From: Flectobacillus sp. | Lineage (GTDB): Bacteria > Bacteroidota > Bacteroidia > Cytophagales > Spirosomataceae | Length of the DNA stretch: 40,446 nt | Assembly: GCA_023255485.1 (NCBI GenBank) | Contig: JALRIJ010000001.1 | Coordinates: 1 to 40,446, forward strand | Reading direction: 5' to 3' | Part shown: positions 1,857-40,294 of the stretch, one piece after another | How positions within the stretch are numbered: the first letter of the stretch is position 1 | How the letters are laid out: each line of letters opens with the position of its first letter | Program-made: the position numbers and the translations under genes | Notes under the pieces: model-generated | Seen by the model: the letters and a program-made list of their open reading frames with translations, nothing else | Told to the model about the DNA's origin: nothing | The model's database searches: none

Positions 1857-2603
1857 CTATTCCTTAACAAAGTTATTTACATTAATCCAAGAAGATTTTT
1901 TTAGAAAATGTTTCTCGTAAAAAGGTTGATAGCTAAGTTCGGCTTTTAAACCAGAGGCATTTACCGTCAAGCAAGCCGATATAGGGCGAATCTGTATAGC
2001 TCCATAAGCTGTTATGAGGGTTTGAGTATCGTCTTCAGAGATACTCTGTACAATATGAAATACTTTTACATTAATCACCCAGTCTTTATTGGTGCTAGTA
2101 TATACTAAAGTATCTTTTTTATTTTTATCTGATGACGCTGGAAGACAGGTAATACGATTATCAACTTTTTGAGTCTTAATTTTAGCGTTAAATTTTAAGA
2201 CTAAATCTTGTTTTTTATCCACTATAAATGGAAGCGTAATCTCCAAGGTATTGGGGCTATTAGTCTTTCTTATTTCAACACCAAGTGAATCGAATATCAT
2301 TTTGTCTCCCTCCAGAATGGATTTACTATATGCATCTAAATCATTAATTAATTGTTGTTTAGCCTTTTCCATCGCTTTCAGTAGCTGACAGTATTTATCT
2401 TCATTAGCACAACTATCAGTAGTGTTTTTTAAGTTTTTCAAAGGACGATAACTCTGAATATTGAAAGCTTGAGGATTATTCCTTAATACGTTTATGTTAC
2501 TGTTACTACCTGTTTTTGTTAAAACTCTATCAACGGTAGTGGGAGATTTAGCATGGCTACACGTAGCTAGTAAAAATAGCAGCATAATAGGCGTTTTTTT
2601 CAT
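1857..2603 (-). CDS. Secreted hypothetical protein
   Basis: This 248-residue protein begins MKKTPIMLLFLLATCSHA, a typical signal peptide probably cut after SHA. A lipoprotein cut at the Cys of LATC is less likely because Thr precedes the Cys. The mature part has four further Cys residues (two in CANEDKYC, one in ITCLP, one in SACL), which could form two disulfides in the periplasm. The C-terminal half is predicted beta-rich. I recognise no family. It lies 65 nt downstream of a LysE-type exporter on the same strand and may share its transcript, although a functional link is not obvious. Confidence 0.6.
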   Translation of the reverse strand: MKKTPIMLLFLLATCSHAKSPTTVDRVLTKTGSNSNINVLRNNPQAFNIQSYRPLKNLKNTTDSCANEDKYCQLLKAMEKAKQQLINDLDAYSKSILEGDKMIFDSLGVEIRKTNSPNTLEITLPFIVDKKQDLVLKFNAKIKTQKVDNRITCLPASSDKNKKDTLVYTSTNKDWVINVKVFHIVQSISEDDTQTLITAYGAIQIRPISACLTVNASGLKAELSYQPFYEKHFLKKSSWINVNNFVKE

Positions 2604-3596: not shown

Positions 3597-3638
3597 ATGT
3601 TAACAAATTATCTCCAATGTTAAGTAGATGTTAACAAA
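3597..3638 (+). promoter_or_regulatory. Repeated ATGTTAACAAA boxes, candidate operator
   Basis: The 11-mer ATGTTAACAAA occurs twice (3597-3607 and 3628-3638), 31 bp apart, which is about three helical turns. A related half-copy, AATGTTAAG, lies between them (3616-3624). GTTAAC is itself palindromic. The boxes lie 60-100 bp upstream of the TonB-receptor -7 element. That spacing suits an activator or repressor, but A/T-rich DNA produces such repeats easily. Confidence 0.35.
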
Positions 3639-3746: not shown

Positions 3747-6563
3747 ATGCAACGCAATTATCTATTCAGTATTTTATTTCTTCTCCTTACTTCATTTGTG
3801 AGCTTCTCGCAAACAGGTAGTATTCAAGGTACCTTGGTGGATGCCAAAACAAATGAGCCAATGTTAGGAACGGCGGTTCGTATTAAAGGCCTTCAAATCG
3901 GTACACAAACAGATGTATCAGGTAACTTTATTCTTGCAAGAGTTCCAGCGGGTGTACATACGCTTGTATTCAGTTTTGTAGGTTATACTTCAAAAGAAAT
4001 TCCGAATGTTCGAGTAGAAGCTGGTAAAACCTCCATCGTTAGCACAAGTATTCAAGAAGCCAATACGACCTTAGATGCTGTTGTGGTGAAAGGATACAAA
4101 AACAAAGGAACAGAAGTCTCTGTTATTACGGAGGTTAAAAAAGTAGAGCAGATTGCGGTGGGTATTTCTTCGCAACAAATTCAAAAAACACAAGATCGTG
4201 ATGCTTCGGCAGTGGTTCGTCGTGTTCCAGGTGTTTCTATTCAAGACGATCGTTTTGTGATTGTTCGTGGTTTAAATGAACGTTACAATACAGTAATGTT
4301 AAACGATGCCATTACTCCTTCTACAGAAGTAGATACAAAAGCATTCTCTTTCGATTTGATTCCTTCCTCAGCGATTGACCGTATGTTAATTTTCAAATAA
4401 GGCTCAGCCGATCTTCCTGGTGAGTTTGGTAGAGGTGTAATTAAAATTTACACAAAAACGATTCCTGATGCCAACTCGTTTACTGCTGGTTTTTCAGTAG
4501 GATATAGAGATAATACAACCTTCCAATCAGCTACTAATTATAAAGGAAGTTCAACAGATATGTTGGGTTTTGATAATGGTAATCGTTCGTTACCAGCTGG
4601 AATTCCTTCTACAAGCACCATTCTTTCTGGAGCGAATACAAGTGCTGTCGTGAATGCTTTTAAGGCAATGCCTACCTACTATAGCTTAAGTAACTTATCG
4701 GTTTTACCAGATTTTAGAGCAAATCTTGGACTTAACCGTCGTTTTACTGTTGGCGGAATTGAAATTGCGACTATCAACTCAGTCAATTATAGTTTCACAC
4801 ATCAACGCACCCCTAACATAGAATTCTATCGTTATGCGTTCAATGCCGATGCAGCTACTAACAAAAGTGAGAAAGAGTTTGCTTATACTGATAATGGATA
4901 CAGCGAAAATGTTCGTGTAGGTGCAATGTCTAACTGGGCATTTATCTTGAGTCCAGCTCATAAAATAGAATTCCGTAATCTATTTAACCAATTAGGTTCT
5001 AAAGAAACGGTATTAAGAACAGGTTATAACAATAACAACGTCGAATTGAAAAACTATTCAATGACTTACGAACAGAAAAGTATTTATTCTGGTCAATTGA
5101 GTGGTACACATGAGTTGGCTGAACGTTCAAAGTTAACTTGGACAACAGGTTATGGTTATACGAATCGTCAAGAACCTGATAACCGTCGTTTTACATCAAG
5201 CCGTACCTTGGGTTCAACGGATGCCTTTGTGATTAATGTTCAGCAATCGCAAAGTCCAACTTTACAGCAAGCAGCTCGTTTTTATTCGTCATTAACTGAA
5301 AATGTAATCTCTGGTAAAATTGACTTTGAACAAAAACTAGGTAAAGCGGATGCAGAAGATGCTGAATTAATCAAGCTACGTGCAGGAACTTATTTAGAGA
5401 AGAAAGATCGTAGTTTTGCTGCTCGTTGGTTTGGTATTGTAAATGCAAATAACGTAGGAGAAGCAATTTTGACGGCAGCTCCAGAGGCATTTTTTGATGT
5501 ATCTAACTTGTCTCCAACGGGGTTATTTTATAACGAAGGAACAGGCTATGAAGATTCATACAAAGCTCGTAATGAGTTATATGCAGGTTATGTAAACGCT
5601 TTTGTACCATTTACGAAGAAATTCAATGCCTCATTTGGTTTGAGAACGGAAAGTAACCGCCAGCAATTAGTAACGTTAAAGCGTGGTAGTGGTGAGCGAT
5701 TAAGTGTAGATAGACCTTTAGTAAGTTGGTTACCTTCAGCTACGTTGTCATACAAGTTGAACGAAAAAAATCAGATTCGTGCCGCTTATAGCCAGACTGT
5801 TAACCGTCCAGAGTTTAGAGAATTAGCACCTTTCCCTTATTATGACTTTAACTATGATGTTACAAGAGTGGGTAATGCTGACTTAAAAACGGCTTCTATC
5901 GCTAATTATGACTTACGTTATGAGTTTTACCCTTCAGAAAGCGAAATTATCTCGATTTCAGGTTTCTATAAACAATTCACTAATCCGATTGAAGCAAGAA
6001 TCTTAAATGCAGGTTCAGGGATTGCTTTTGGAGTTGGAAATGCTGAGTCAGCATTTAGCCGTGGAATTGAATTGGAAATGCGTAAATCGTTGAAAGGACT
6101 TACAAACATGAAAGCAATTGATAATTTAACCTTATTGTTGAATGCTTCTATTATTGACTCTGACGTAAAAACAGGCTTCTCTGGACAATCATCAGACAGT
6201 CGATTCTTACAAGGACAGTCTCCTTATTTGATTAACGCTGGATTATATTACAATGACGCTGATCGTGACTTCTCTGTTAATATTTTGTATAACGTAGTAG
6301 GACAACGTATTTTCTTGGTAGGTGATGGCGTAGTATTCCCGACCGTGTATGAATTGCCACGTAACGTGATTGATTTGAATTTAACAAAAGCAATTGGTTC
6401 GCATTTAGAATTGAAAGTAGGTATTCAAGATTTGTTAAATCAACCATTCCGTTTCTATAATGATACGAATAACGATAAGTCAATTGATACAAATGTGGAT
6501 GATCTTTTCAGAACATACAAACGTGGAACATCATCTACCATCGGTATTAACTACAAATTCTAA
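3747..6563 (+). pseudogene. TonB-dependent receptor interrupted by an in-frame TAA
   Basis: One frame of 938 codons encodes a complete TonB-dependent outer-membrane receptor except for a TAA at codon 218 (4398-4400). Before it are a signal peptide (to about residue 21), a CarboxypepD_reg-like domain (GSIQGTLVDAKTNEPMLG) and most of the plug (VPGVSIQDDRFVIVRGL, FDLIPSSAIDRM). After it the plug continues (GSADLPGEFGRGVIKIYTK), and the beta-barrel runs to a terminal Phe (GINYKF). Related receptors usually have Ser at the stop position (FKSG), so TCA to TAA would be a single change. An internal ATG at 4560 would yield a barrel without its plug. No SusD-like gene follows; a lipoprotein gene does. 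The stop may be a real nonsense mutation, a recoding site or a sequencing error. Confidence 0.85.
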
Positions 6564-6585
6564 TAGCATAAAATGATTTTACGGT

Positions 6586-6615
6586 GTATTTCTGGAAGTT
6601 TCCTTCTAGAAATAC
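6586..6615 (+). other. Intergenic hairpin between receptor and lipoprotein genes
   Basis: A 13-bp stem (6586-6598 with 6603-6615, one G-U pair) closes on a TTTC tetraloop. It lies in the 71-nt gap before the lipoprotein ATG. No T-run follows, so it is more likely an mRNA-stabilising or attenuating hairpin than a terminator. Confidence 0.6.
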
Positions 6616-6634
6616 CCATAACAATAACATTAAA

Positions 6635-7957
6635 ATGAAGACATTACATAAACTATTCATTCTTTCAGCATTAACATTCGGTACGGTTGCTTGCGGAAAA
6701 TTAGAAAATGATTTTCAAGAACCTACTCCAGTTTCTAGCCGTGAATCGGTCGTAATTAGTGGATCAATTTCTCAAAATACGACTTGGACTGCGGATAAAA
6801 AATATTTGTTAAGTGGTTTTGTATATGTAGAAGCAGGTGCAACACTTACGATTCAGCCAGGAACAATTATTAAAGGAGATTTACCTACAAAAGGCTCGTT
6901 AATCATCAAGCCTGGTGCAAAAATTATTGCAGAAGGTACAGCAGACAAACCAATTATTTTCACCTCTAACCAAGCAGTAGGAAACCGCAAAGCAGGTGAC
7001 TGGGGCGGATTGGTGATTTTGGGTAAAGCAAAAGTAAACAAGACCCCAATTACGATTGAAGGCGAAAATACCACCACTTTTGGAGGAGATAACGATGCTG
7101 ATAACTCTGGAATTTTAAAATACGTACGCATTGAATTTGCTGGTGTAGCCTTTGAGACAGATAAAGAAATCAATGGATTGACCTTAGGAGCAGTAGGTTC
7201 GGGAACTAAAATTGATTACGTGCAAATTTCTTATTCAGGTGATGATGCCTTCGAGTGGTTTGGTGGAGCAGTAAATGCAAAACACTTAATTTCATACAGA
7301 ACTCTTGATGATGATTTTGATACGGATAACGGGTTCTCTGGGAAGGTACAATTTGCTGTAGCATTGCGTGACCCATCGGTTGCAGATCAGTGTAGTTGTT
7401 CTGATTCAAATGGTTTTGAGTCTGATAATGACGGTTCTGGATCAACAGCACTACCTCAGACTTCTGCCCAATTTGCAAACGTAAGTTTGTTTATTGCCCC
7501 AGGGACAATCGACAAGAAATATCGTTCAGCTTTTAGAATTAGAAGAAATTCCGCTTTAAGTATTTTCAACGCTGTTGTAAATGGTGCTTATCCTAAAGCA
7601 GGTCTTGAATTGGAGGGTACAGCTTCTCAGTCTAACTTTACTTCGGGTAAGGCTGACTATAAAGGTTTGATATTGACAGGATTGACTACTGCGAGTTTAA
7701 ATGTAAATCAACCATTATTTACAAATGAAGCTCGTAAAAATGTGGTTTCTTGGAATGTTACTGATTTAGGATTTCATTCAAGCTTTAATGCGTTGAATAG
7801 CCCTGTATTTACTCCAACAAAAACTTCAAAAGTATTAACCAATGGAGTTGTATTACCAACTGGATTTGATACTGCTACTTATAATGGTGCTTTTGATGGC
7901 ACAACAGATTGGACTGCTAAGTGGACTAACTTTAATCCGCAAACTACTGAGTATTAA
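6635..7957 (+). CDS. Beta-helix-like surface or periplasmic lipoprotein
   Basis: The start is the ATG at 6635 (MKTLHKLF), because it gives a lipoprotein signal peptide ending TVAC with Cys20. An upstream frame extension has no signal character. The 440-residue product has short beta-strand repeats such as GATLTIQPGTIIKGD, GSLIIKPGAKIIAEG and DWGGLVILGKAKV, typical of a right-handed parallel beta-helix, followed by an Asp/Gly-rich middle. Similar lipoproteins commonly follow TonB-dependent receptors in Bacteroidota and probably help capture or anchor the receptor's ligand; the ligand is unknown. It is likely co-transcribed with the interrupted receptor gene 71 nt upstream, so its expression may suffer polar effects. 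Confidence 0.75.
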   Translation: MKTLHKLFILSALTFGTVACGKLENDFQEPTPVSSRESVVISGSISQNTTWTADKKYLLSGFVYVEAGATLTIQPGTIIKGDLPTKGSLIIKPGAKIIAEGTADKPIIFTSNQAVGNRKAGDWGGLVILGKAKVNKTPITIEGENTTTFGGDNDADNSGILKYVRIEFAGVAFETDKEINGLTLGAVGSGTKIDYVQISYSGDDAFEWFGGAVNAKHLISYRTLDDDFDTDNGFSGKVQFAVALRDPSVADQCSCSDSNGFESDNDGSGSTALPQTSAQFANVSLFIAPGTIDKKYRSAFRIRRNSALSIFNAVVNGAYPKAGLELEGTASQSNFTSGKADYKGLILTGLTTASLNVNQPLFTNEARKNVVSWNVTDLGFHSSFNALNSPVFTPTKTSKVLTNGVVLPTGFDTATYNGAFDGTTDWTAKWTNFNPQTTEY

Positions 7958-11176: not shown

Positions 11177-11424
11177 ACAAATTTTAGAAGTAGTCGCTAT
11201 TTACTTAGTTCTGAAAATAGGGGGATTTCTTCAGAAGGGTGTCTTAGCGATATATGAGGATAAATGAATAATTAGAAAAATGTGGGAACAAACTTCCAAT
11301 ACTCGCTGGTGTTCTGGGGTGTTAGCCGATAGAATGTTACACACATTATGTAGCGTTTATAACATTTGTTGCACTTTTTTCGTTAATAATATGTTAATTC
11401 AAATAGGTTATCGTTTATTTTATT

Positions 11425-17609: not shown

Positions 17610-17942
17610 AATCGTGTGGGTAATTTAATAAACAGATAACACTTAGTTAGTATAGTAATCTGCTTCCTTGTAAAAACTTAATCAGATAATTAGCAAAACT
17701 ACAAAAAACATACAAATTTTATGAATTTACAAGGGTTTAATTGCCTCTCGATGAATTTATCTAGTCATTGAAGCTTAGAATTAGGTAAAAGTTCATTTAC
17801 TTTGCATTCGCTTTGGTATAGCTACTGGAGTGTCTAAATAAAAATAATTCCTTTATTCCATCAAGGGGCGAGCACTATGTTTAAAAATATGTTTTTACGC
17901 ACATCTTCGTTTTCAAGTAAATCATCCCATAAGACCGAAACA
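17610..17942. other. Divergent promoter interval, parE / polysaccharide locus
   Basis: This A/T-rich interval has a leftward -7 element (17694-17701) and a near-match to a rightward -7 element, TTACTTTG (17797-17804), ahead of the polysaccharide export gene. A longer start for that gene at 17877 is possible. I see no RNA gene. Confidence 0.45.
17694..17701 (-). promoter_or_regulatory. Candidate parE -7 element TAGTTTTG
   Basis: This is an exact TAnnTTTG match on the minus strand, 85 nt before the parE ATG. No well-spaced TTTG box was found. Confidence 0.4.
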
Positions 17943-20435
17943 ATGCCATTCTCATCTTTTCTTAAAAAAACCATTGTAAGCATTTTTTGCTTAGGTTTTT
18001 TACTTACGACCAATTCGCTTGTCGCTCAAATTAGTCCTTATAATTTATCCTCATTACAGTCTGCAGCCTCAATGCTACAAGGTGGTTCATCTGTGAGTGC
18101 ATCAAGTATCAAAGGAGATTCAAAAGGCTCGGGAGTACGTTCCGTTAAGACTACATCAAAAGAAACGAATGTAGCTGATTCGCTTAGAGCAGCAACAGAG
18201 GTTAAGAAAGCATCTTCAGGAGATTCTGCCACATTAGCGTATCGTAAAAAACTCTTTGGTTATTCTATTTTTAATAATGATAGAGCGTTTACGGCAAATG
18301 TTGAACGTATGGCTACTCCTAAGAACTATGTTTTAGGGCCAGACGATGAAATTATTATTGATATTACAGGTTACTCTGAAGCTCACTATACGCTTCCTGT
18401 AACTCCAGACGGATATATTAAAGTAGAAAAAGTAGGAGCTATTCCTGTCAATGGATTAACCATTGAAGAGGCTAAGCACCGTATTGTTAATCGTCTATCT
18501 CAAATTTTTGTAGGATTAAAGTCTTACAATGGCTATCCTGCAAATACGAGTGCAACGGTTTCGTTAGGAAGTATCAGGACTATTAAAGTAAGTGTAATTG
18601 GTGAGGTAATTGCTCCAGGTACGTACTCAATGCCATCTTTAGGCGATGTAATGGTTGCATTACGCTTGTCAGGTGGTCCAAATGAAAATGGTACATTCAG
18701 AGATATTCGAGTAATCAGAGGGAAAAAATTAGTGGCTCAGGTCGATTTATACGATTTATTGACTACAGGTAACTTACGTCAAAATATTACTTTAAAAGAC
18801 CAAGATATTGTACAGGTTGGATACTATAAAAATAGAGTAGAGATTACAGGAAATGTAAAGAAGCCTGCCATTTTTGAAGTTCATGGTCATGAAAGTTTAG
18901 AGCGTATCATTGCTGATTATGCAGGTGGATTTAAACCAGAAGCATACCGTGAAATCTTGAAAGTACAACGTTTTACAGATAAAGAGATGAAGTTAATCGA
19001 CTTAAATGGCGATTTATTATCTTCTTTCTATCCTAAGCCTGGTGATGTTATTAATGTAGAAAAAGTGTTAACGACTCGTTTTGAAAATCTTATCAAACTA
19101 TCGGGTTCAGTTTTCAGACCAGGTACTTACTCGGTTACGGATAACCCTACCTTAACGAAATTGATTAAGAGAGCTGATGGTTTTACAGAGGATGCTTTCT
19201 TATCTAGAATTGAAATTATTCGTATCAATGATGACTTATCGAAAACTAGTATGGCTATTAATTATAAAGATTTAGTAGCTGGAAAAGTGGAAGATGTTGT
19301 CTTGAAACGTCAGGATGAAGTAATGGTTTATTCGAGTCATGAATTAATCGAAAGTCAGGTCGTTCGTATTCAAGGTGAAATCAACCTGAAAGTTACAGCA
19401 CCTACTACTAGCGATGTAAGCACGTTAGGTGCTGCTCCTGTTAACGCTGACGCAAAACAGAATGGTGTGTTCCCGTATTTGAAAAATATGACCGTTGAAG
19501 ATTTGATTATTAAAGCAGGAGGCTTAAAAGAATCAGCTGCAACAGGAAGAGTAGAAGTAATTAGAAGAAAGAAAAATATTGGGAAAGATGATCCTACACA
19601 GATTACCCCTGTAATTGGAGAGCGTTTCCAATTTGCTATTAATGCAGATTTGTCCTTGAATGAGACAGCATCTAAGTTTATCTTAGAACCTTACGATGAA
19701 GTCTTTGTTCGTTCATCTCCTAATTATGAAAAACAGCAGTTTGTTTCAGTAGAAGGACAGGTAGTGTTTCCTAGTACTTATGGTTTAGAGCGTAAGGATG
19801 AGAAAATTTATGATATCGTTAAGCGTGCAGGAGGGTTAAATAACCAAGCATACCCGAAAGGTGCTACGTTAATTCGTCAGGTAAAAATCCCTGCTGCAGA
19901 AGTAGAACGTAGAAGAAAAGTAGCCCAAGACTTAGCAGATGCTCGTACTGACGAAGTGGTGAAGGTGGAAGAAGTGAAAGAGTTCTCACAAGAGTCAATC
20001 GGGATTGATTTAGTAGAAGCATTAGACAATCCAGCAAGTGATGCCAATATGATTTTACAAGATGGCGATATTTTACGTATTCCGAAAGAACCTCAAACGG
20101 TACGTTTACAGGGTGAATTATTGTACCCAACTTCTACTCGTTTTATGAAAGGTATGCCATTTAAGCACTATATCTCAGAAGCAGGTGGTTTCACCGAATT
20201 ATCATCTCGTAAACGTGCTTATATCATTTATGCCAATGGTTCTGTAGATAGAACTCGTAAAGTACTAGGATTAGTGAATGTCTATCCAAAAGTAGAGCCA
20301 GGTTCGGAAATTATCGTTCCTAAATTGAATTTGAAAACAGGAGCAACTCAGCAGTTATTATCTGTAATATCAACTGTGTCAGCTTCATTATCAGGAATTG
20401 TTGGTATTGTCGCTCTTATTCGTACTTTACAATAA
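17943..20435 (+). CDS. Polysaccharide export protein with six SLBB domains (Wza/OPX-like)
   Basis: This is the outer-membrane/periplasmic export component of a capsule or O-polysaccharide system. The ATG at 17943 (MPFSSFLKK) gives a signal peptide ending SLVAQ and an 830-residue product; an ATG at 17877 would put 22 residues before it. After a low-complexity linker comes the Poly_export domain (YVLGPDDEIIIDITGYSE, VTPDGYIKV). Six SLBB-type repeats follow, each with a GxVxxPGTY-like strand and an AGGF/AGGL-like turn, starting near IKVSVIGEVIAPG, RVEITGNVKKPA, IKLSGSVFRPG, VVRIQGEI, FVSVEGQVVFPS and VRLQGELLYPT. The end is a hydrophobic helix (ISTVSASLSGIVGIVALI). E. coli Wza is less than half as long. 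Confidence 0.88.
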   Translation: MPFSSFLKKTIVSIFCLGFLLTTNSLVAQISPYNLSSLQSAASMLQGGSSVSASSIKGDSKGSGVRSVKTTSKETNVADSLRAATEVKKASSGDSATLAYRKKLFGYSIFNNDRAFTANVERMATPKNYVLGPDDEIIIDITGYSEAHYTLPVTPDGYIKVEKVGAIPVNGLTIEEAKHRIVNRLSQIFVGLKSYNGYPANTSATVSLGSIRTIKVSVIGEVIAPGTYSMPSLGDVMVALRLSGGPNENGTFRDIRVIRGKKLVAQVDLYDLLTTGNLRQNITLKDQDIVQVGYYKNRVEITGNVKKPAIFEVHGHESLERIIADYAGGFKPEAYREILKVQRFTDKEMKLIDLNGDLLSSFYPKPGDVINVEKVLTTRFENLIKLSGSVFRPGTYSVTDNPTLTKLIKRADGFTEDAFLSRIEIIRINDDLSKTSMAINYKDLVAGKVEDVVLKRQDEVMVYSSHELIESQVVRIQGEINLKVTAPTTSDVSTLGAAPVNADAKQNGVFPYLKNMTVEDLIIKAGGLKESAATGRVEVIRRKKNIGKDDPTQITPVIGERFQFAINADLSLNETASKFILEPYDEVFVRSSPNYEKQQFVSVEGQVVFPSTYGLERKDEKIYDIVKRAGGLNNQAYPKGATLIRQVKIPAAEVERRRKVAQDLADARTDEVVKVEEVKEFSQESIGIDLVEALDNPASDANMILQDGDILRIPKEPQTVRLQGELLYPTSTRFMKGMPFKHYISEAGGFTELSSRKRAYIIYANGSVDRTRKVLGLVNVYPKVEPGSEIIVPKLNLKTGATQQLLSVISTVSASLSGIVGIVALIRTLQ

Positions 20436-20476
20436 GCACATATCATATAAGAACAACATATCTATAAAATTATACT

Positions 20477-21565
20477 ATGTCAGAAATAAAACCCTTATCA
20501 CCAGAAGAACAGTTTACGCTAAAGGATATAGTCGTAAAGTTAGTAAAGTTTAAAAATTTAGTTGTTCGTAATTGGAAAGTGCTCCTTATTGCTGCGGTAG
20601 TGGGTTCACTTTTGGGTACAGCCTTTGACTTTTTTACTAAAAAAGAGCCACTTTATACAGCCAATATTCTATTTAATATGGAAAATGGAGCTGTCTCAGG
20701 AGAAGGAGGCTTAGCCGAAATTGCAAGTGCCTTTGGTATGGGCGGAGGCGGAGCTGGCAATGCCAATTTGTTTAGTGGCGATAACTTCATGGAGTTAGTG
20801 AAAACGCATAATATCTACAATAGAGCTCTGTTGAAAATGGTTGATTACAAGGGACAAAAAGTAATTTTTGCAAACTTATTTTTAGCTAAAAGTGGAGCAA
20901 TCGAAGATGATTGGAAGAAAGATGAAAGCTTCAAAAACTTTAGATATAAGCACAATAACTACGCTAAATTTACGGTAGAAGAACGAAATAAATTACGTTC
21001 AATACAGGTATTCTTAGACCCTATTACGTCGATTAAGCCTGCTAATACACTTAATAAAAAGTCAACATTTTTGACCTTGTCAGTGAAAACTCGTAATGAT
21101 ACGCTTTCTCATATCTGGGCGGAAACCTTTTTAGAAACAGTAACAGAGTTTTATATCGAAACGAAAACTAAAAAGACGAGAGAGTTATTGACGATTGTAG
21201 ATAGAAGAGTTGACTCATTAAAAAATCAGCTATATGGAACACAACGTCGTTATGCTCAGTTGATGGACAGAAATCAGCAAGTGATTATGCAACAGGGCTT
21301 GCTAGAACAACAACGATTGAGTGCAAGCAGCAGTCAGTTACAGGGGATGTATTTTGATGCAGTAAGAAGTTTAGACCAGTTGAAGTTTTCAATGGTGAAA
21401 GAGTCTCCTTTGTTAACGATCTTGGACGATTCAGAATTACCAATTGGTGCTGACTTTGCAGGTATTAATAAAGGACGTTACGTGGGTGCATTCGTAGGGT
21501 TTGTATTAATGTTACTTTATGTAGCCATTAAAAAGGTACTGGAAGAAGTTAAGCAGGACATTTAA
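20477..21565 (+). CDS. Wzz-type polysaccharide co-polymerase without kinase
   Basis: A 362-residue inner-membrane protein with helices near both ends (WKVLLIAAVVGSLLGTAF near 35-53; YVGAFVGFVLMLLYVAI near 335-351) and a large periplasmic coiled-coil part between. This is the Wzz/chain-length-determinant layout. A Gly-rich segment (AFGMGGGGAGNA) lies early in the periplasmic domain. There is no C-terminal tyrosine-kinase (BY-kinase) domain. It is 41 nt after the SLBB export gene and 28 nt before the ABC permease gene, so it probably bridges the inner-membrane exporter to the outer-membrane protein. Confidence 0.82.
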   Translation: MSEIKPLSPEEQFTLKDIVVKLVKFKNLVVRNWKVLLIAAVVGSLLGTAFDFFTKKEPLYTANILFNMENGAVSGEGGLAEIASAFGMGGGGAGNANLFSGDNFMELVKTHNIYNRALLKMVDYKGQKVIFANLFLAKSGAIEDDWKKDESFKNFRYKHNNYAKFTVEERNKLRSIQVFLDPITSIKPANTLNKKSTFLTLSVKTRNDTLSHIWAETFLETVTEFYIETKTKKTRELLTIVDRRVDSLKNQLYGTQRRYAQLMDRNQQVIMQQGLLEQQRLSASSSQLQGMYFDAVRSLDQLKFSMVKESPLLTILDDSELPIGADFAGINKGRYVGAFVGFVLMLLYVAIKKVLEEVKQDI

Positions 21566-21593
21566 TTTGTAACATCTATTTTATCAAATAATA

Positions 21594-22421
21594 ATGCAAG
21601 AAACAATTATTGAGGCAGGACGATCAGAAAGGTATTATTGGCGAGATTTATGGAAATTCAAAGAATTACTGTATATCTTGGCTAAAAGAGATGTCACGGT
21701 TCGCTATAAACAAACATTTGTAGGTGTCGCTTGGGCGGTAGTTCGTCCAGTAATGACGGTATTGGCATTCGTATTTGCCTTCCATAAAGTTGCTAAAATT
21801 GAAGATAAATCAAATATTGATTTTGGATTGATTGTTTTTTCTGGAGTTATTTTCTGGAATTTCTTTGCTTCTTCTTTTCAACAAGTGAGTAATAGTATTA
21901 CAGGAAATGCCAATCTGGTATCGAAGGTGTATTTTCCTCGACTGCTAATGCCTTTGAGTGCAGCAGCAGTACCTTTATTAGACTTTTTTGTAGGCTTTGC
22001 GATTCTACTTCCTTTTTTACTTTTTAAAGGAGTAATTCCAAACTGGCATCTGGTTTTAGTGCCTCTTTTCTTATTATTAGGTTATTTAGCCGCTCTTAGC
22101 CTTGGAGTTATTTTTGCTGCATTAAATGTACAATTTAGGGATTTTCAGCAGCTTGTACCTCTCATTGTGCAGTACGGTTTCTTTGTGTGTCCTGTAGCTT
22201 ATTCCGTTGCGACCATTCAAGGCTTATCTTGGTTTAAGTATTACTATTGGATTAATCCATTAGCAGGAATTATAGAGGGATTCAGATGGAGTATTCTACC
22301 TGACTATCCTTATTTTGACTGGAGTAGCTTTATTCCATCGTTAATTTTCATTGTTATTACTACCATAATCGCAGTCTATTTCTTCCGTAAAAAAGAAAAT
22401 TCATTTGTTGATTATATTTAA
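21594..22421 (+). CDS. ABC-2 polysaccharide exporter permease (Wzm/KpsM-like)
   Basis: A 275-residue inner-membrane protein with about six helices and the ABC-2 layout. The N-terminal amphipathic stretch is YYWRDLWKFKELLYILAKRD, followed by VRYKQTFVGVAWAVVRPVM, the classic start of polysaccharide and teichoic-acid export permeases. QFRDFQQLVPLIVQYGFFV and WINPLAGIIEGFRW are also typical. It pairs with the ATPase encoded 8 nt downstream. Together they should flip a completed lipid-linked polysaccharide across the inner membrane. Confidence 0.93.
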   Translation: MQETIIEAGRSERYYWRDLWKFKELLYILAKRDVTVRYKQTFVGVAWAVVRPVMTVLAFVFAFHKVAKIEDKSNIDFGLIVFSGVIFWNFFASSFQQVSNSITGNANLVSKVYFPRLLMPLSAAAVPLLDFFVGFAILLPFLLFKGVIPNWHLVLVPLFLLLGYLAALSLGVIFAALNVQFRDFQQLVPLIVQYGFFVCPVAYSVATIQGLSWFKYYYWINPLAGIIEGFRWSILPDYPYFDWSSFIPSLIFIVITTIIAVYFFRKKENSFVDYI

Positions 22422-22429
22422 GAGATTGC

Positions 22430-23689
22430 ATGATGACCGTTATTGAAGCACAAAATATCAGCAAACGCTATATTATAGACCACAAAAAAGGAAATACCAA
22501 AGACACCTTTAGAGAGTTAGTAACCGATAGCATTAAGAATATTTTTTCTGGAAAGAAAAATGAGGACGAAATTGCTCACGAAGATTTTTGGGCATTGAAA
22601 GATGTAAGTTTTAAAATTGACCAAGGAGATAGAGTAGGAGTGATTGGCTCTAATGGAGCAGGAAAATCTACTTTATTGAAAGTATTGAGTCGAATTACGG
22701 AACCTACTCATGGAAGTGTTAAAATTAGTGGACGAGTAGCGAGCTTACTTGAAGTAGGTACTGGTTTCCATCCAGAACTTTCTGGTAGAGAGAATATTTT
22801 CTTAAACGGAGCTATTCTTGGAATGAAACGAGATGAAATCAAACGCCACTTTGATGCCATTGTTGACTTCGCAGGGGTCGAAAAGTTCTTGGATACTCCC
22901 GTAAAACGTTATTCATCTGGAATGTATGTTCGTCTGGGTTTTGCAATTTCAGCTCACTTAGAACCAGAAATCATGATTGTTGATGAGGTGCTAGCTGTAG
23001 GGGATGCCGAATTTCAACGTAAATGCCTTGGCAAAATGAAAGATGCTTCCGTTTCTGGTAGAACCATTCTTTTTGTTAGTCATAACTTAACTGCTGTTCA
23101 AGGACTTTGTAACAAGTCGATGTTTATGCAAAAAGGACAGTTGATTGAAATGGGTGAAACGTCTCAGGTACTTGCTACTTATTTGAGTCATGTGCAGAAA
23201 ACAGAGTTAGAAGCCGTTTATACTTCGCCAGAGGAAGCTCCAGGGAATGACAAAATTCGCTTGAAAAGTATTCGTATTATTCCAAATTATGTGGATAGCC
23301 AACGACACCTAGATATTCGTACTAGCTTTAAAGTGAAAATCGAATTCTGGAATATGCTAGATGAAGCTAATTTGAACATTAGTTTACACCTGAATTCATT
23401 AACAGGAGAGTGTATCTTTAATATTGGTACAGAGTCTAAAGCTTTCAAAAAAGGGATTATAACAGCCGAATGTGATATACCGAACAATTTCTTAAATGAT
23501 GGGTCTTATTCAATTTCATTTATGGTTGTGAAAGATACAGCACTTCCGCTCTTTAATTTTGAAGAGGCGTTAATTTTTGAAATTGAAGATTACCGTGAAG
23601 GAATGGCTTGGTATGGCAAATGGCCAGGTTATATTCGTCCCAAAATCGATTTCCCTATTACCCAACTTGAATTTAATAATTTTAGTTAA
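22430..23689 (+). CDS. ABC polysaccharide exporter ATPase with C-terminal Wzt domain
   Basis: A 419-residue cytoplasmic ATPase. Walker A is GSNGAGKST (73-81), the signature region YSSGM (161-165), Walker B IMIVDE (181-186) and the switch His is His218. Residues from about 270 form an extra beta-rich domain like that of Wzt proteins, which in O-antigen systems recognises the chain end before export. The start is ATG-ATG (22430 or 22433). It is 8 nt from the permease gene. The extra domain suggests export depends on glycan structure; the ligand cannot be read from sequence. Confidence 0.92.
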   Translation: MMTVIEAQNISKRYIIDHKKGNTKDTFRELVTDSIKNIFSGKKNEDEIAHEDFWALKDVSFKIDQGDRVGVIGSNGAGKSTLLKVLSRITEPTHGSVKISGRVASLLEVGTGFHPELSGRENIFLNGAILGMKRDEIKRHFDAIVDFAGVEKFLDTPVKRYSSGMYVRLGFAISAHLEPEIMIVDEVLAVGDAEFQRKCLGKMKDASVSGRTILFVSHNLTAVQGLCNKSMFMQKGQLIEMGETSQVLATYLSHVQKTELEAVYTSPEEAPGNDKIRLKSIRIIPNYVDSQRHLDIRTSFKVKIEFWNMLDEANLNISLHLNSLTGECIFNIGTESKAFKKGIITAECDIPNNFLNDGSYSISFMVVKDTALPLFNFEEALIFEIEDYREGMAWYGKWPGYIRPKIDFPITQLEFNNFS

Positions 23690-23758
23690 TGGAGAAATTG
23701 AAGTGTTGTCAAAACAAACGCTTCTGTTGTGATTGACAGTTTTTAATGATTAACTAAA

Positions 23759-24838
23759 ATGATAAACGTAACAAAAACATTTTTACCTCCATTAGAAGAG
23801 TACCAGCAATATGTGCAGGGGATTTGGGAGCGAAATCAACTAACCAATAATGGGCCGTTGGTGCAAGAGTTAGAAAAGCAACTGCGGGAATACTTGGGAG
23901 TGAAACACTGTTTGTTCGTTTCAAATGGTACAATAGCAATTCAGTTGGCATTGAAAGCTTTGAACATAACGAAAGAGGTTATTACAACTCCTTTTTCTTA
24001 TTGTGCTACCTCTCATGCCATCATCTGGGAAAATTGCGTACCTGTCTTTGCCGATATTTTAGAAAGTGATTACTGTGTTGACCCTGCTAAAGTGGAAGCA
24101 GCTATCACAGAAAATACAGAAGCAATTTTGGTAACACACGTCTATGGTAATCCTTGTGATGTGGATGCCCTACAAGCAATCGCTGATAAGTATCAGTTAA
24201 AGCTAATTTATGATGCGGCTCATGCTTTTGGAGTAAAAGTAGACGGTAAGTCGCTACTTTCTTTTGGTGATATCAGTACTTGCAGTTTTCACTCAACGAA
24301 AGTGTTTCACTCAATCGAAGGTGGTGCTGTTATTACTGATAATGATGAATATGCTTGGCTACTCGATCGTTATCGTAGCTTTGGACATAAAGGAGATGAC
24401 TATTTTACCATTGGGATTAATGGTAAAAACTCTGAGTTTCATGCAGCAATGGGCTTATGTAATTTACCAAGAGTGCCGCAGATTATTGAGGCGAGAAAAG
24501 CAATTGTGGATTTATATGAAGCAGGCTTAGACTGGTCTAAAATTTCACAACCTATTGTAACGAAAGGAGTCGTAGAGCGTAATTATGCTTATTTTCCTAT
24601 CTTACTACCTTCTGAAGCAATTCTATTGAAAGTTCGTGCCGCACTGGAAGCGGAAAATATATTCCCACGACGCTATTTCTATCCGTCGTTGAGCTCGCTT
24701 TCTTTTGTGACTAGTACCAGTAATTGCCCTATCTCGGATGACTACGCCCTGAGAGCTCTGGCATTACCACTTTACTATGATTTAGCTCATGCAGACGTAG
24801 TCAGAATCTGCCAGATTGTTAACACTTCTTTAGCATAA
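23759..24838 (+). CDS. DegT/DnrJ/EryC1/StrS-family sugar aminotransferase
   Basis: A 359-residue cytoplasmic PLP enzyme that should transaminate a keto group on a nucleotide sugar to give an aminosugar. PLP-site residues are visible: NGTIA (56-60), Asp152 in DAAHAFG, and Schiff-base Lys181 in SFHSTKVFH. The typical FGHKG motif follows. It sits 69 nt after the ABC ATPase gene, a gap holding an 8-bp hairpin (23700-23707 with 23717-23724), and 10 nt before the GT-C gene. Members of this family make 3- or 4-amino sugars. Which position is aminated is open, since no dehydratase or epimerase partner lies in the window. Confidence 0.9.
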   Translation: MINVTKTFLPPLEEYQQYVQGIWERNQLTNNGPLVQELEKQLREYLGVKHCLFVSNGTIAIQLALKALNITKEVITTPFSYCATSHAIIWENCVPVFADILESDYCVDPAKVEAAITENTEAILVTHVYGNPCDVDALQAIADKYQLKLIYDAAHAFGVKVDGKSLLSFGDISTCSFHSTKVFHSIEGGAVITDNDEYAWLLDRYRSFGHKGDDYFTIGINGKNSEFHAAMGLCNLPRVPQIIEARKAIVDLYEAGLDWSKISQPIVTKGVVERNYAYFPILLPSEAILLKVRAALEAENIFPRRYFYPSLSSLSFVTSTSNCPISDDYALRALALPLYYDLAHADVVRICQIVNTSLA

Positions 24839-24848
24839 TTTTATCACT

Positions 24849-26912
24849 ATGACTTTTTTATATCTTACCCTATATCTTGTCTTTATTGGCTTCGTATTTA
24901 GAGTGGCCTCAAGGGTTAGTAGAAAATCCTTGATAGATATAATTCTGACAGCTCATATCTTATTTTGTGCCAGTGTAATCGGAACGGGCTTTGTGCTATC
25001 TGCGATTGATCGAACCGATGACAGACGTTTTTGGGCAATAGGAGTATTTGTTCCAGTTATCTTTTTTTACACCATCTTCAAAAAAGTCTTTCACCAAGAA
25101 GAAGTAGAACGATTTACTATTTTTGAATTAATTGGTAGCCGTATTCAACTCGTTTGGAATTGGTTTGGAGGTTTATCATTGCTTCTTAAGTATATTTTTG
25201 GAGGTCTTTTAGCGACTTTTGCTATTGTTGAGATTACCAATTTATTACTTATTTGTTTTACTCCTCCTAATGAATGGGATAGTATGACAGGGCATTTGAA
25301 TCGTTTGTTGTATTATTTACAGCATCACACAATGGCTCATTTTGGAGGAACAAACTGGAATATGGATACCTATCCTAAAAGTATTTGTACCCTTCAGATA
25401 TATCATTACCTCATGTCTGGCAAGGTAGAAAACTTTTTTAAAGCGATTCATCATGCCTCTTATCTCATTTTGGGGCTATCGATGTTTGGAACAGTTCGGA
25501 ATTTAACGAATAACTTTACAGCGAGTGTTTTTTGCGGTTTAATCATCTGGTTATTACCTGATGTATTAATGCAATCAATTACGACAGAAACGGATGTGGT
25601 GTTAGCTGCCTATTTGAGCTGTTTTGTCTATTTTCTATTTTCGTTCAATACGACCAAACTTATACGCTATTTATACCTCGCAGGAATTACCTTTGGGATT
25701 ACGTTAGGGCATAAAATTACCTTTGTGTTCTCTTTACCTCCTTTGTTTTTTATTATTCTTTATACCGTTTTTTATGACGATGGAGGTTTGCTTCAGACCC
25801 TAAAAGAATGGTTCGCTTTAGCTTGGTTACGTTTCAAACATTTTGCTTTTGCCATCTTTATTGGTTTATGCTTTTTTACTTTTCCAACGGGCTATATTAA
25901 AAACATTCAAGTCTTTCATCATCCTATTGGTCCTCCGACGGCTTTATATCACCAATCTATCGAGCGAGCAGGTACTAAAAAGAACTTACTTATTCAAGGC
26001 TCACGTAATATCATTCGCTATTCGATTGATTTGATTAATATGGATGGTTTACGTAACTGGACTGTAGGAGAAAAGATTAATCAAGAAATGAAGAAGCCTA
26101 TTATTTGGCTTGAAAAGAAAAGTCCACTTCGTTTGGAAGAAAAGACGGATTATACGATTATCCCTTTTACCTATAATAGACGATTTGAATTTTTCAATTG
26201 TAATCCCTACTGGGGCATTTTTGGGTTTGGTCTTATTTTACCTCTTTTTGTACTGACAATGCTCGGCATGTTAAGAGTCAAGAAAGCGTATTATTGTTTT
26301 GGAATAGCATTCATTTTACATTTCTTAGCTCTATCTTTTACTGCTGCTTATGACCCTTGGAAAGGCCGATACATGATAAGCAGTGCCGTATATGCTGTAC
26401 CATTTTTGGCATTACTTTTTACTGAACCATGGGGATTATTGGCTAAAAAGGCATTTATCCTAAAAACATATACTTCTATCGTAGTGCTTATAGGTTTGGT
26501 GTCAGCAATTCTGGCAGTTTATCTTAACGAAAGAGCCTTACCAATTGCCGCATTGGGGCGACCTTCTGCTTTCGATACCGAACGGGTAGCTTTCCAGACA
26601 TGGGCAAGACCAGATATTACAACTCCTTATCAAAAGTTTAATGAGTTAGTGCCTCAAAATGCTTCTGTCGCTCTAGGAACTATTAACGATGACTACGAAT
26701 ATCCGTTATGGGGTGATAAACTTACAAGAAAGTTGTTTGTCTTGAACCCGTTTGGAGAGGGATTACGCCCAATTCCGAAAGAAGCACAGTATTTGTTTTT
26801 TGCCAAAAGTGTTATTCAACCACAGGCTGGAGATATTCGGCTGGGTACAGATACTACGATGAAGGACGTTATTACTAGAGGAGAGGATTATTATTTACGA
26901 AAATTAAAATAA
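24849..26912 (+). CDS. Multispanning GT-C-type glycosyltransferase
   Basis: A 687-residue protein with about eleven or more hydrophobic helices and a short soluble C-terminal tail. After the first helices a periplasmic loop contains NEWDSMTGHLNRLLYYLQH, with an acidic residue placed like the catalytic Asp of ArnT/PMT-type GT-C enzymes. These enzymes transfer a sugar from a polyprenyl-phosphate donor outside the membrane. It has tight operon spacing on both sides (10 and 16 nt). The acceptor is probably the polysaccharide or its lipid carrier. I am fairly sure of the class but not of the donor; a Wzy-like polymerase is the main alternative. Confidence 0.65.
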   Translation: MTFLYLTLYLVFIGFVFRVASRVSRKSLIDIILTAHILFCASVIGTGFVLSAIDRTDDRRFWAIGVFVPVIFFYTIFKKVFHQEEVERFTIFELIGSRIQLVWNWFGGLSLLLKYIFGGLLATFAIVEITNLLLICFTPPNEWDSMTGHLNRLLYYLQHHTMAHFGGTNWNMDTYPKSICTLQIYHYLMSGKVENFFKAIHHASYLILGLSMFGTVRNLTNNFTASVFCGLIIWLLPDVLMQSITTETDVVLAAYLSCFVYFLFSFNTTKLIRYLYLAGITFGITLGHKITFVFSLPPLFFIILYTVFYDDGGLLQTLKEWFALAWLRFKHFAFAIFIGLCFFTFPTGYIKNIQVFHHPIGPPTALYHQSIERAGTKKNLLIQGSRNIIRYSIDLINMDGLRNWTVGEKINQEMKKPIIWLEKKSPLRLEEKTDYTIIPFTYNRRFEFFNCNPYWGIFGFGLILPLFVLTMLGMLRVKKAYYCFGIAFILHFLALSFTAAYDPWKGRYMISSAVYAVPFLALLFTEPWGLLAKKAFILKTYTSIVVLIGLVSAILAVYLNERALPIAALGRPSAFDTERVAFQTWARPDITTPYQKFNELVPQNASVALGTINDDYEYPLWGDKLTRKLFVLNPFGEGLRPIPKEAQYLFFAKSVIQPQAGDIRLGTDTTMKDVITRGEDYYLRKLK

Positions 26913-26928
26913 ACCCCAACATTATCGA

Positions 26929-27627
26929 ATGAAAATCGCCATCATGCAACCCTATATTTTGCCCTACATTGGTTATTTTCAATTGATTAAGGCAGTAGAT
27001 AAATTCATTATTTATGATGATGTAAATTTCATTAATCGAGGGTGGATTAACCGAAATCGTTTATTAGTAGGAGGAAAAGATAGTCTTTTTACCATTCCGC
27101 TCAAGGAAGCAAGTCAAAATAAATTAATTGATGAAATTGCGGTCAACTGGGATAGTTCTTGGAAAAATAAGTTTCTCAAAACACTTGAACAGAGTTATAA
27201 AAAAGCCCCTTATTATGAAGCTGTATTGCCCTTAATTCAAGCATCTTTCGCATTGGATAATGTGCCTATTTCGGAAGTGGTTGTCGAAAATTTACGTATC
27301 TTGTGTAAGTACTTGGAGATAGATACAGAAATTGTAGCCTCTTCTCGCATTTATCAAAATCAACATTTAAAGGCTCAAGAGCGTATATTAGATATCTGTT
27401 TGCAGGAAAAAGCGGCTCATTATATTAACCCAATCGGGGGAATAGAACTGTACGATAAGGCTTTTTTTGAAAAACAGGGTATTCGATTGAATTTTATTAA
27501 AGCAAAGCCAATCGTGTATCCGCAGTTTAAAAACGAGTTTGTGCCTTGGCTGTCGATACTAGATGTGTTAATGTTTAATTCTGTAGCTCAAATACAGTCC
27601 TTTTTAGAGGAATATGAGTTGGTATAA
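26929..27627 (+). CDS. WbqC family protein
   Basis: A 232-residue cytoplasmic protein with the hallmark start of the WbqC-like family: MKIAIMQPYILPYIGYFQLI, then DKFIIYDDVNF and WINRNRLL. The family occurs in O-antigen and capsule clusters, often beside aminotransferases and acyltransferases; I know of no proven reaction that I would assign here. Conserved Tyr/Asp/Asn patterns suggest an enzyme working on a modified sugar. It is 16 nt after the GT-C gene and 39 nt before the acyltransferase gene. Confidence 0.85.
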   Translation: MKIAIMQPYILPYIGYFQLIKAVDKFIIYDDVNFINRGWINRNRLLVGGKDSLFTIPLKEASQNKLIDEIAVNWDSSWKNKFLKTLEQSYKKAPYYEAVLPLIQASFALDNVPISEVVVENLRILCKYLEIDTEIVASSRIYQNQHLKAQERILDICLQEKAAHYINPIGGIELYDKAFFEKQGIRLNFIKAKPIVYPQFKNEFVPWLSILDVLMFNSVAQIQSFLEEYELV

Positions 27628-27666
27628 ATCTGTTTAATATAAATGTCCTAGCATAGGATTTTAAAT

Positions 27667-28326
27667 ATGGCAAAAGTAGTGGTTTTCGGAACAGAGTTGG
27701 TGGCAGAATTAGCTCATTATTATCTTACCAACGACTCAGAACATGAGATTGTAGCCTTTACTGTCAATCAAGAGTACATTAAAGAGCCTACTTTTTGTGG
27801 TTTACCCGTTGTTCCTTTCGAAGAGGTAACCACCTTATATCCGCCTCTGGAATATAAATTTTTTGCTCCTCTTTCTGAACGAATGATGAATCAAGTGCGA
27901 GCAAAAGTATATCAGGAAGCGAAAGATAAGGGCTATGAGTTTATTTCTTATATCAGTTCAAAAGCAACGGTATTGACGGATAAGATAGGAGAAAATTGCT
28001 TTATCTTAGAAGATAATACCATTCAGCCTTTCGTGACGATTGGGAATGATGTGGTGTTATGGTCAGGTAATCATATTGGACATCATAGTGTGATCAAAGA
28101 CCATGTGTATTTCACCTCTCACATTGTGCTCTCTGGACGTTGTGTGGTCGAACCCTATTGTTTCTTAGGAGTGAATGCAACTATCCGTGACGGCGTGCAT
28201 TTAGGAGAAGGCACACTGATTGCGATGGGGACTAATTTTACAGGAAAAAGAACCGAAGAGTGGAGTATCTATAAAGGAAATCCTGCAGAAAAAGCTAAAA
28301 TTTCAAGCAAAGACATCAAGCTTTAA
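27667..28326 (+). CDS. NeuD/PglD-like sugar acyltransferase
   Basis: A 219-residue cytoplasmic enzyme. The N-terminal part (VVVFGTELVAELAHYYL) is the nucleotide-sugar-binding domain of the NeuD/PglD family. From about residue 95 a left-handed beta-helix of hexapeptide repeats follows, with a His-rich active-site loop (SGNHIGHHSVI). Such enzymes add acetyl or similar groups from an acyl-CoA to an amino or hydroxyl group of a sugar. Next to the DegT aminotransferase and WbqC genes, it probably acylates the new amino group. Confidence 0.82.
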   Translation: MAKVVVFGTELVAELAHYYLTNDSEHEIVAFTVNQEYIKEPTFCGLPVVPFEEVTTLYPPLEYKFFAPLSERMMNQVRAKVYQEAKDKGYEFISYISSKATVLTDKIGENCFILEDNTIQPFVTIGNDVVLWSGNHIGHHSVIKDHVYFTSHIVLSGRCVVEPYCFLGVNATIRDGVHLGEGTLIAMGTNFTGKRTEEWSIYKGNPAEKAKISSKDIKL

Positions 28327-28425
28327 GAAGTATTCATACGAAACTATTTTTAGTTGAAGTAATTAATTCATAGTGAGTACTTTAATTTCAAAACAAAGCT
28401 TTCAAAATTCATTATCATTACCTAT

Positions 28426-29355
28426 ATGAATTGGCATAAATTAGGTTGGGTTTTTAAACCAACAGCTGAATATGAGTGGAGTAAAACCCACGCTCAAGTA
28501 CCCTTTGCATTTCCGTTAGGAGATGATAAAATTAGGGTGTTTTTTTCTACCCGTGATGCTTCGAGTCGTTCGAGTGTGTCGTTTGTCGATATTGATGCAA
28601 ATAATCCTACAGAGGTATTATATGTACATGATAAACCTTGTTATCAGGCTGGAAAGTTAGGCTATTTTGATGACTCAGGTACGATGCCTTCTTGGTTTAT
28701 TGAACAAGACGGAAAAATTTTGTTGTACTACACGGGATGGAATACCAGTAAAACGGCTTCTTACCGATTAGGGATTGGGCTCGCAGAAAGTATTGATGGA
28801 GGGCTAACCTTCAATCGGGTATATGAAGGCCCTTTGATGGATAGAAGTATTTATGACCCTATTTGGGTTGGCCAGCCTTGTGTACTGAAGCATGAGGGAA
28901 TCTGGAAAATGTGGTATTTATCATGTGTGAAAATCGAATATATTGATAACCACCCAGAGCCTTTTTATGATGTGAAATATGCTACTTCCGAAGATGGTAT
29001 TCACTGGAATCGTACAGGAGATGTATGTATTGGTTTGGATGATTTTACGGATGCAGTGGGTCGCCCTTCTGTGATTATCGAAGATGGAAAATACATTATG
29101 TATTATTCATATCGCAATGCAAAGGGCTATCGTGCCGACAAAGGAACGAGCTACCGTTTAGGTTTTGCAGAATCAGAGGATGGAATTCATTGGACTCGTA
29201 GAGATGCTGAAATAGGAATAGATAAGTCGGCCGAAGGCTGGGATTCTGAAATGATTACCTATCCGCATGCTATCAAACATAATGGTAAAACGATGATGTT
29301 CTTCAATGGTAACGGCTTCGGAGCTTCAGGCTTTGGTGTAGCGATTGAGGAATAA
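28426..29355 (+). CDS. Glycosidase-like beta-propeller protein
   Basis: A 309-residue protein without a signal peptide. It has repeated strand patterns ending in KMWY, IMYYS or MMFFNG and paired segments YATSEDGIHW and FAESEDGIHW. This is typical of five-bladed beta-propeller glycosidase-like proteins (GH43/GH32/GH130-type folds). Acidic residues such as DDSGT and YDP could serve catalysis or binding. Because it is apparently cytoplasmic and in a biosynthetic locus, it may act on a precursor or be a phosphorylase or transferase. It is followed by a strong terminator. Confidence 0.65.
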   Translation: MNWHKLGWVFKPTAEYEWSKTHAQVPFAFPLGDDKIRVFFSTRDASSRSSVSFVDIDANNPTEVLYVHDKPCYQAGKLGYFDDSGTMPSWFIEQDGKILLYYTGWNTSKTASYRLGIGLAESIDGGLTFNRVYEGPLMDRSIYDPIWVGQPCVLKHEGIWKMWYLSCVKIEYIDNHPEPFYDVKYATSEDGIHWNRTGDVCIGLDDFTDAVGRPSVIIEDGKYIMYYSYRNAKGYRADKGTSYRLGFAESEDGIHWTRRDAEIGIDKSAEGWDSEMITYPHAIKHNGKTMMFFNGNGFGASGFGVAIEE

Positions 29356-29375
29356 GCTTGTTTTATCTATACTGA

Positions 29376-29418
29376 AATAACCAATGTTCGGGGAAATTCC
29401 TGAATATTGGTTATTTTT
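29376..29418 (+). terminator. Strong terminator inside the polysaccharide locus
   Basis: A 17-bp stem with two G-U pairs (29376-29392 with 29399-29415) and a 6-nt loop is followed by T5. It separates the genes from 17943 to 29355 from the GT2 gene that starts 36 nt later. Confidence 0.88.
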
Positions 29419-29454
29419 GTTCGTGCCTCCTGAGTATCTGGACAAAAATAAACA

Positions 29455-30435
29455 ATGATGAGTACACAACCCAAAGTTTCTATCTTAGTGGTTTGCTTCA
29501 ACCACGCCAAGTTTTTGCGTCAATGCCTTGATAGTGTTATTGCTCAAAAAACAAATCATCCCTTTGAAATCTTAATTGCTGACGATGCTTCGACTGATGG
29601 TACACAAGACATCATTAAGGAATATCATGCACGTTATCCAGACTTAATTACGACTGTTTTATTACATGAAAAAGGATATGGAGATTATGGAAAAAGTAAT
29701 TGTATCAGTATTGAAAAAGAGGCAAGAGGGACGTATTTGAATATCTTAGAAGGAGATGACTATTGGATAGACGAGAACAAACTCCAGCTTCAGATAGATT
29801 TATTGGATCAACATCCAGAAACGGTATTATGCTTTCATAATGCGTTGATTACCTATGACGATGGTAGTTTACCTTCGCATGAAGTAAACCCAATAGATCA
29901 AAAAGACCACTTAACTGCTGCTGATTTGATTAGCGAAACAGAAGTGTGGTTTATGGCTACCACGAGCGTAATGTATCGAAATGGTATTTTGTATCCTTTC
30001 CCTGACTGGTTTTATAAATCTAAAAGTGGGGATATTCCTCGTTATATCTTGCTTACAAAGCGAGGAGATATTCGTTATCTCAACCGAACGATGTCAGTGT
30101 ATCGTAGGCATTCCGCAGGGGTGAGTTATACCGACCATAAGCACGATGCGGGTTTTCTTTGGAATCGTATTGAAATGTATGAAAACATTGATAAAGAATT
30201 AAACTTCGTTTATCATGCCAAAATTCAAAAGAATATTGCCCGTTACTATCTGATGATGGCCAATTCAAAGCAATATAATGGACATTGGTATTGGGAACGT
30301 TATTATGCCCTGAAGTCTTTGCAATTATCGAAACCCAATAGCAAAGAGCATATAAAAGAGGTAGTCGCTGCTCATATTATTCCTCATAGTATCATGAAAC
30401 GATATGCTTTTATTAAAGGGAAAATTCTTGGCTAA
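29455..30435 (+). CDS. Family 2 glycosyltransferase
   Basis: A 326-residue cytoplasmic GT-A enzyme. The start PKVSILVVCFNHAKFLRQCL, nucleotide-binding DDASTDGT (43-50) and the metal-binding segment LEGDDYW (98-104) define GT2. It transfers a sugar from a nucleotide sugar to the growing polysaccharide or its lipid carrier; donor and acceptor are unknown. The start is one of two adjacent ATGs. It lies just behind a strong terminator and I see no clear promoter, so it may depend on readthrough. The basic C-terminus could bind the membrane. Confidence 0.9.
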   Translation: MMSTQPKVSILVVCFNHAKFLRQCLDSVIAQKTNHPFEILIADDASTDGTQDIIKEYHARYPDLITTVLLHEKGYGDYGKSNCISIEKEARGTYLNILEGDDYWIDENKLQLQIDLLDQHPETVLCFHNALITYDDGSLPSHEVNPIDQKDHLTAADLISETEVWFMATTSVMYRNGILYPFPDWFYKSKSGDIPRYILLTKRGDIRYLNRTMSVYRRHSAGVSYTDHKHDAGFLWNRIEMYENIDKELNFVYHAKIQKNIARYYLMMANSKQYNGHWYWERYYALKSLQLSKPNSKEHIKEVVAAHIIPHSIMKRYAFIKGKILG

Positions 30436-40267: not shown

Positions 40268-40294
40268 AAGGAAGACTTTGGGGGATAATGACAC

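Follow-up and report, generated by a model that had tools for sequence, protein, structure and literature searches.

A TonB-dependent receptor gene in a draft genome of Flectobacillus sp. is interrupted by a single in-frame TAA. This stop is very probably a nonsense change, isolated and very recent, in an ordinary receptor gene whose code is read normally, be it an artefact or variant of the assembly or a null allele. The window, i.e., the whole 40,446-nt stretch of DNA which was analysed, is contig C111 of a draft of 703 contigs (3.72 Mb, 88.76% complete, 2.17% contaminated). The genome was taken for a metagenome-assembled draft and is the one genome of its genus in the comparison.

The receptor gene and its in-frame stop codon

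The gene is composed of the following parts:
3747..6563, plus strand: TonB-dependent receptor gene, interrupted once, 82-83% identical to Flectobacillus-like homologues throughout its length
3747..4400, plus strand: upstream open part (217 aa) with a signal peptide (by inspection), a CarboxypepD_reg-like domain and most of the plug
4398..4400, plus strand: in-frame TAA at residue 218, inside the plug domain
4431..4433, plus strand: Arg codon at residue 229; Gly in 61/61 aligned distinct homologues
4401..6560, plus strand: downstream open part (720 codons) with the end of the plug and the beta-barrel; its earliest start codon is ATG 4560

The TAA at 4398-4400 lies in the frame that starts with ATG 3747 and runs through the barrel to the TAA 6561-6563. 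This frame comprises 938 codons and contains neither a second stop nor a frameshift. The sequence-only reading, according to which a single in-frame TAA splits an otherwise complete receptor, was confirmed in that the barrel is open in the same frame and the domains are intact; the C-terminal Phe it had described was present as well.

When X was placed at the stop, the 938-residue product matched CarbopepD_reg_2 (26-114), CarboxypepD_reg (25-99), Plug (135-223) and TonB_dep_Rec_b-barrel (426-894), every match being above the Pfam cut-offs. Plug and beta-barrel are thereby joined in one protein. As written, they are divided between two open frames, each of which retained its own domains when scored separately, and a single uninterrupted frame is not present (stop at residue 218). 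The model for SusC/RagA proper (TIGR04056) was matched by the 217-aa part alone and below the cut-off (59.2 vs 368.25 bits), and the top model of the read-through protein was TIGR01782 with 188.6 bits, under the cut-off of 310. Among solved structures, the receptor was matched by one short SusC-homologue domain.

As written, the TAA would inactivate the receptor, translation ending within the plug. The barrel part, which has no signal peptide, would not be delivered to the outer membrane, as the architecture of such receptors suggests.

Comparison with homologues

For the comparison, 67 homologue loci were gathered, of which 62 are distinct; 61 of the distinct ones could be aligned at residues 218 and 229. 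None of the 62 contains an internal stop in its best match, and the comparison with orthologues proposed in the sequence-only reading thus confines the stop, among the genomes compared, to that of the window. The Ser which was said to be usual at this position was indeed found in 55/61 aligned distinct homologues (Thr in 5, Ala in 1). A search of 222 genomes of the family, in which few candidates were scored per genome, gave a match at E 1e-150 in 197 genomes, and among the matches listed only the window's own entry carried the stop.

The closest homologues (82-83% identity, for which "Flectobacillus-like" is used as a label here) were L034 and L036, both from records titled Flectobacillus, and L035, from a record titled Cellulophaga, along with homologues from genomes that belong to a single further genus of the family. 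The receptor of the Cellulophaga record (Cellulophaga sp. BC115SP) is 83% identical to that of the window, which matches the closeness of the Flectobacillus records, and its title may be a misnaming.

At 149 near-invariant positions (conserved to at least 95%), the receptor of the window retains 148 residues, the sole violation being Gly229 to Arg, 11 codons past the stop. The underlying alignment took only homologues with a near-full-length open frame and was itself unable to reveal stops, which the best-match comparison and the family search could do. Between residues 188 and 241, the stop and Arg229 are the only deviations from the residues common to four Flectobacillus-like homologues.

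In domain order, full length and lipoprotein partner, the locus is like other Bacteroidota TonB-dependent receptors that carry a CarboxypepD_reg-like domain at the N-terminus (PF13715, PF07715, PF00593). Stop-free homologues of such receptors occur in Flectobacillus and Aquirufa records and in other genomes of the family, with 82-83% identity for the Flectobacillus-like ones, whereas the in-frame TAA and the changed invariant Gly are confined to the genome of the window among the genomes compared.

A split of the gene into two separately translated functional proteins was also considered and is exceedingly unlikely. The downstream frame does offer an ATG at 4560, as such a split would need; however, this codon lies 53 codons past the stop within conserved sequence, such that the end of the plug would be lost, the product starting there has no signal peptide (by inspection), and none of the 62 distinct homologues is split. 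The two-product gene was rejected due to the position of the ATG and the unsplit homologues.

Another copy of the receptor region was not found in the draft at the thresholds used. A receptor paralogue of about 40% identity is present in L108 (6115-8580; G000:C36); it has no stop and is truncated by the contig end. The plasmid comparison gave 91 matching records, every one of them below 60% identity, the best among the matches listed having 41%. Literature on a premature stop codon in a Bacteroidetes TonB-dependent receptor, or on premature stops, pseudogenes or sequencing error in metagenome-assembled genomes, was not found; for this receptor locus, titles and the beginnings of abstracts yielded nothing either.

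Age of the stop codon

The ratio dN/dS was calculated pairwise according to Nei-Gojobori for the parts before and after the stop; dS was high, hence, the ratios are rough. For the window, dN/dS before and after the stop was 0.102 and 0.048 with L034, 0.095 and 0.044 with L035, and 0.042 and 0.045 with L036. The comparison with L005 gave 0.053 before the stop; after the stop, dS was saturated and gave no ratio. Among the homologues themselves, L005 vs L034-L036 gave 0.056-0.076 before the position of the stop and 0.046-0.049 after it, and L034 vs L035 and L036 gave 0.128 and 0.028 before and 0.024 after. The dN/dS of the receptor after the stop is not clearly above that before.

The 149 near-invariant codons represent about 348 non-synonymous sites. 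With one violation, a Poisson bound places the neutral divergence since inactivation probably below about 1.4%, against a near-saturated synonymous divergence between window and homologues. The stop appears to be very young, because purifying selection past the stop is strong and one of 149 near-invariant residues is changed. As expected for a recent pseudogene, the disabling change is missing from the orthologues, all 62 distinct homologues being free of stops in their best match.

That the receptor is an old, fixed pseudogene of the lineage is extremely improbable. The invariant Gly changed near the stop would fit such a gene, but one stop only and no frameshift were found across 938 codons, 148 of the 149 near-invariant residues are retained, the neutral divergence derived from them is probably below about 1.4%, and dN/dS past the stop is not clearly raised. 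Old age was rejected on the conserved residues and dN/dS.

Readthrough

The sequence-only reading had also allowed that the stop is tolerated by readthrough. Reading of the TAA at a useful level by a near-cognate or suppressor tRNA, resulting in a full-length receptor, is very unlikely. The low dN/dS and the intact residues past the stop would be expected in this case. In addition, the excerpted text of a survey (PMC7918605) argues that in-frame stops are widespread in prokaryotic genes and subject to purifying selection in many cases; it also suggests that readthrough is frequent. The same text, however, calls many such events short-lived and assumes that the majority are not functional recoding. 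With the stops described in that excerpt the window shares a single stop in an otherwise conserved frame of low dN/dS; in contrast, its stop is unshared and comes from one draft genome, which makes it a candidate allele only.

Several results stand against readthrough. Conservation of the stop among orthologues, by which programmed readthrough or recoding is recognised, was seen in 0/62 distinct homologues. TAA terminates 22 of the 27 genes of the window including the receptor, and an Rfam search of the window gave no family. ARAGORN found a tRNA-Arg(cct) and a tRNA-Ala(ggc) in 40 further stretches of the draft and none in the window; a suppressor tRNA for TAA was not seen in 454 kb of 3.72 Mb, i.e., about 12% of the genome. 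Since the stop is unshared by the 62 distinct homologues, the low dN/dS along the long branch mostly represents the time before the stop. It therefore describes the gene as it was then and is no evidence for readthrough. Accordingly, this part of the sequence-only reading was left unsupported. Highly improbable, too, is a variant in which partial readthrough lets the population tolerate the TAA, a phosphate-stress receptor being made at a low and tunable level and Arg229 belonging to the same adaptive change.

Frequency of internal stops in the draft genome

The draft was sampled over 454 kb, made up of the window plus 40 other stretches, and 1.6 Mb of genome G001 (about a quarter of it) were used for comparison. 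Runs of 10 N occur in 5 of the 41 draft stretches (L074, L091, L092, L095 and L098), in L092 and L095 inside genes; the G001 stretches contain 5,000 N. When 1003 open frames of G001 (≥ 150 codons) were compared with the 454 kb, 56 orthologue-like matches covering 22,466 codons were obtained. Among these, four draft genes were flagged for internal stops, and two were left after inspection: the receptor and a gene in L081, in which a single in-frame TAG (about 2511-2513, minus strand) interrupts an otherwise matching gene, presumably for a PLP-dependent deaminase-like enzyme. The other two were set aside, L092 due to a break and frame change at a run of N and L073 due to a poorly aligned 5' end. 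In L095, a run of N coincides with a frame change but not with a stop. The reverse comparison gave 0/54 with a stop; it is biased toward intact genes, as the queries are open frames. A raised error rate in the draft is possible; the base rate is drawn from two cases, and one of these, the receptor, had prompted the comparison.

Additionally, an intrinsic scan for codon usage was applied. In the 454 kb of the draft it gave 4 candidate internal stops, with the window site highest (0.31); two of the others are in L105 and look by eye like ordinary gene junctions, and one is in L090. Applied to the 1.6 Mb of G001, the scan yielded 13 candidates, all ≤ 0.26. The window site was thus the top of all 17 candidates, most of which resemble gene junctions by eye, and the stop in L081 was missed. 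Candidate densities are alike in both genomes; therefore, the scan shows that the window site stands out but not that stops are enriched in the draft.

Origin of the stop codon

Within the preferred reading, a recent nonsense change in a normally decoded gene, two origins were weighed. A consensus error or a minority strain variant in the draft assembly has about an even chance of being correct; for a young null allele that is truly present in the sampled cells, the chance is put somewhat short of even. We lean slightly toward the former, because Gly229Arg, which is seen in no homologue, lies 11 codons away in an otherwise undeviating block. The argument from this clustering is weak, as 7 of the 149 near-invariant positions are within 11 residues of the stop and chance alone would place a violation among them in about 5% of cases. 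In favour of a real allele, long contigs like this one of 40 kb usually contain few base errors.

The interpretation given in the sequence-only reading is thus upheld in part. Its proposal of a recent event or a sequencing error agrees with dN/dS of 0.044-0.048 after the stop, with one altered residue in 149, with the gapped draft and with one further single-stop gene in 56 comparisons; its proposal of tolerance by readthrough does not stand.

The lipoprotein partner and the upstream repeat

The following features flank the receptor gene:
6635..7957, plus strand: intact lipoprotein gene (440 aa, lipobox by inspection), partner of the receptor
6583..6617, plus strand: strong predicted RNA hairpin (-19.1 kcal/mol, z -5.67) in the gap between the receptor gene and that of the lipoprotein
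3618..3634, plus strand: direct repeat TGTTAA-N5-TGTTAA upstream of the receptor, with Pho-box-like spacing

The lipoprotein matched neither Pfam nor NCBIfam at the limits used, nor any solved structure. According to the sequence-only reading, its gene may be affected if the stop is real; the gene itself is intact. Of 68 loci, counting duplicates, 64 encode a homologue of the lipoprotein immediately past the receptor in the same orientation, the two matched stretches being separated by 34-510 bases. Two of the remaining four loci are truncated by a contig end; in a third, the lipoprotein lies upstream, and the fourth lacks it within 2991 bases. Receptor and lipoprotein are a conserved pair.

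The hairpin is not followed by a T-run, and no terminator-like site was called at 6583-6617. In L005, an inverted repeat of different sequence is seen at the corresponding intergenic place, as read from the letters. The gap between the two genes is longer in L034-L036 (184-185 bases), and a comparable inverted repeat was not noted in the part of it that was examined.

Allowing 2 mismatches and either orientation, the upstream repeat was present in 45 of 62 upstream regions of 200 bases, against 5.1 expected from mononucleotide shuffles; the motif was picked from the window (44/61 without it), and the upstream regions are related to one another. When regions of 400 bases were taken, 4 of 63 contained the exact form, and the window has further, looser copies at 11381 and 12686. 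We take the 11-base period of the repeat to recall the PhoB box.

For Flavobacterium johnsoniae, the excerpted text of PMC8115612 describes gene pairs induced by low phosphate, each combining a TonB receptor with a hypothetical lipoprotein (Fjoh_3857/3856 and Fjoh_0545/0546). As far as that excerpt goes, in both systems a TonB receptor having pf07715 and pf13715 is encoded next to a lipoprotein that matches no Pfam family. The likeness is one of domain content and gene neighbourhood, and in the window a Pho-box-like repeat lies upstream. By analogy with these excerpted data, the pair of the window may belong with the low-phosphate pairs, which is offered as a lead; phosphate control would be what we infer from it.

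Other genes in the window

Same-strand genes at 17877-30435 belong to polysaccharide export, ABC-2 transporter, DegT-type aminotransferase, WbqC-like, hexapeptide transferase and glycosyltransferase families, a run that resembles a surface polysaccharide cluster. On the minus strand, 35462-39061 encodes a single protein of 1199 aa in which a calcineurin-like phosphoesterase domain precedes an Omp85 domain, and 39086-40294 encodes an HD domain fused to a PycTM (Pycsar effector-like) domain.

Meaning of the finding

On its own, the stop in the receptor is of little importance and represents another case of a gene disrupted by one stop codon. Two cautions follow from it: a low dN/dS past a stop reflects the long history of a gene rather than its condition after the stop arose, and a single stop in a draft genome calls for support by reads. 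The more useful by-product is the receptor-lipoprotein pair together with the repeat upstream of it.
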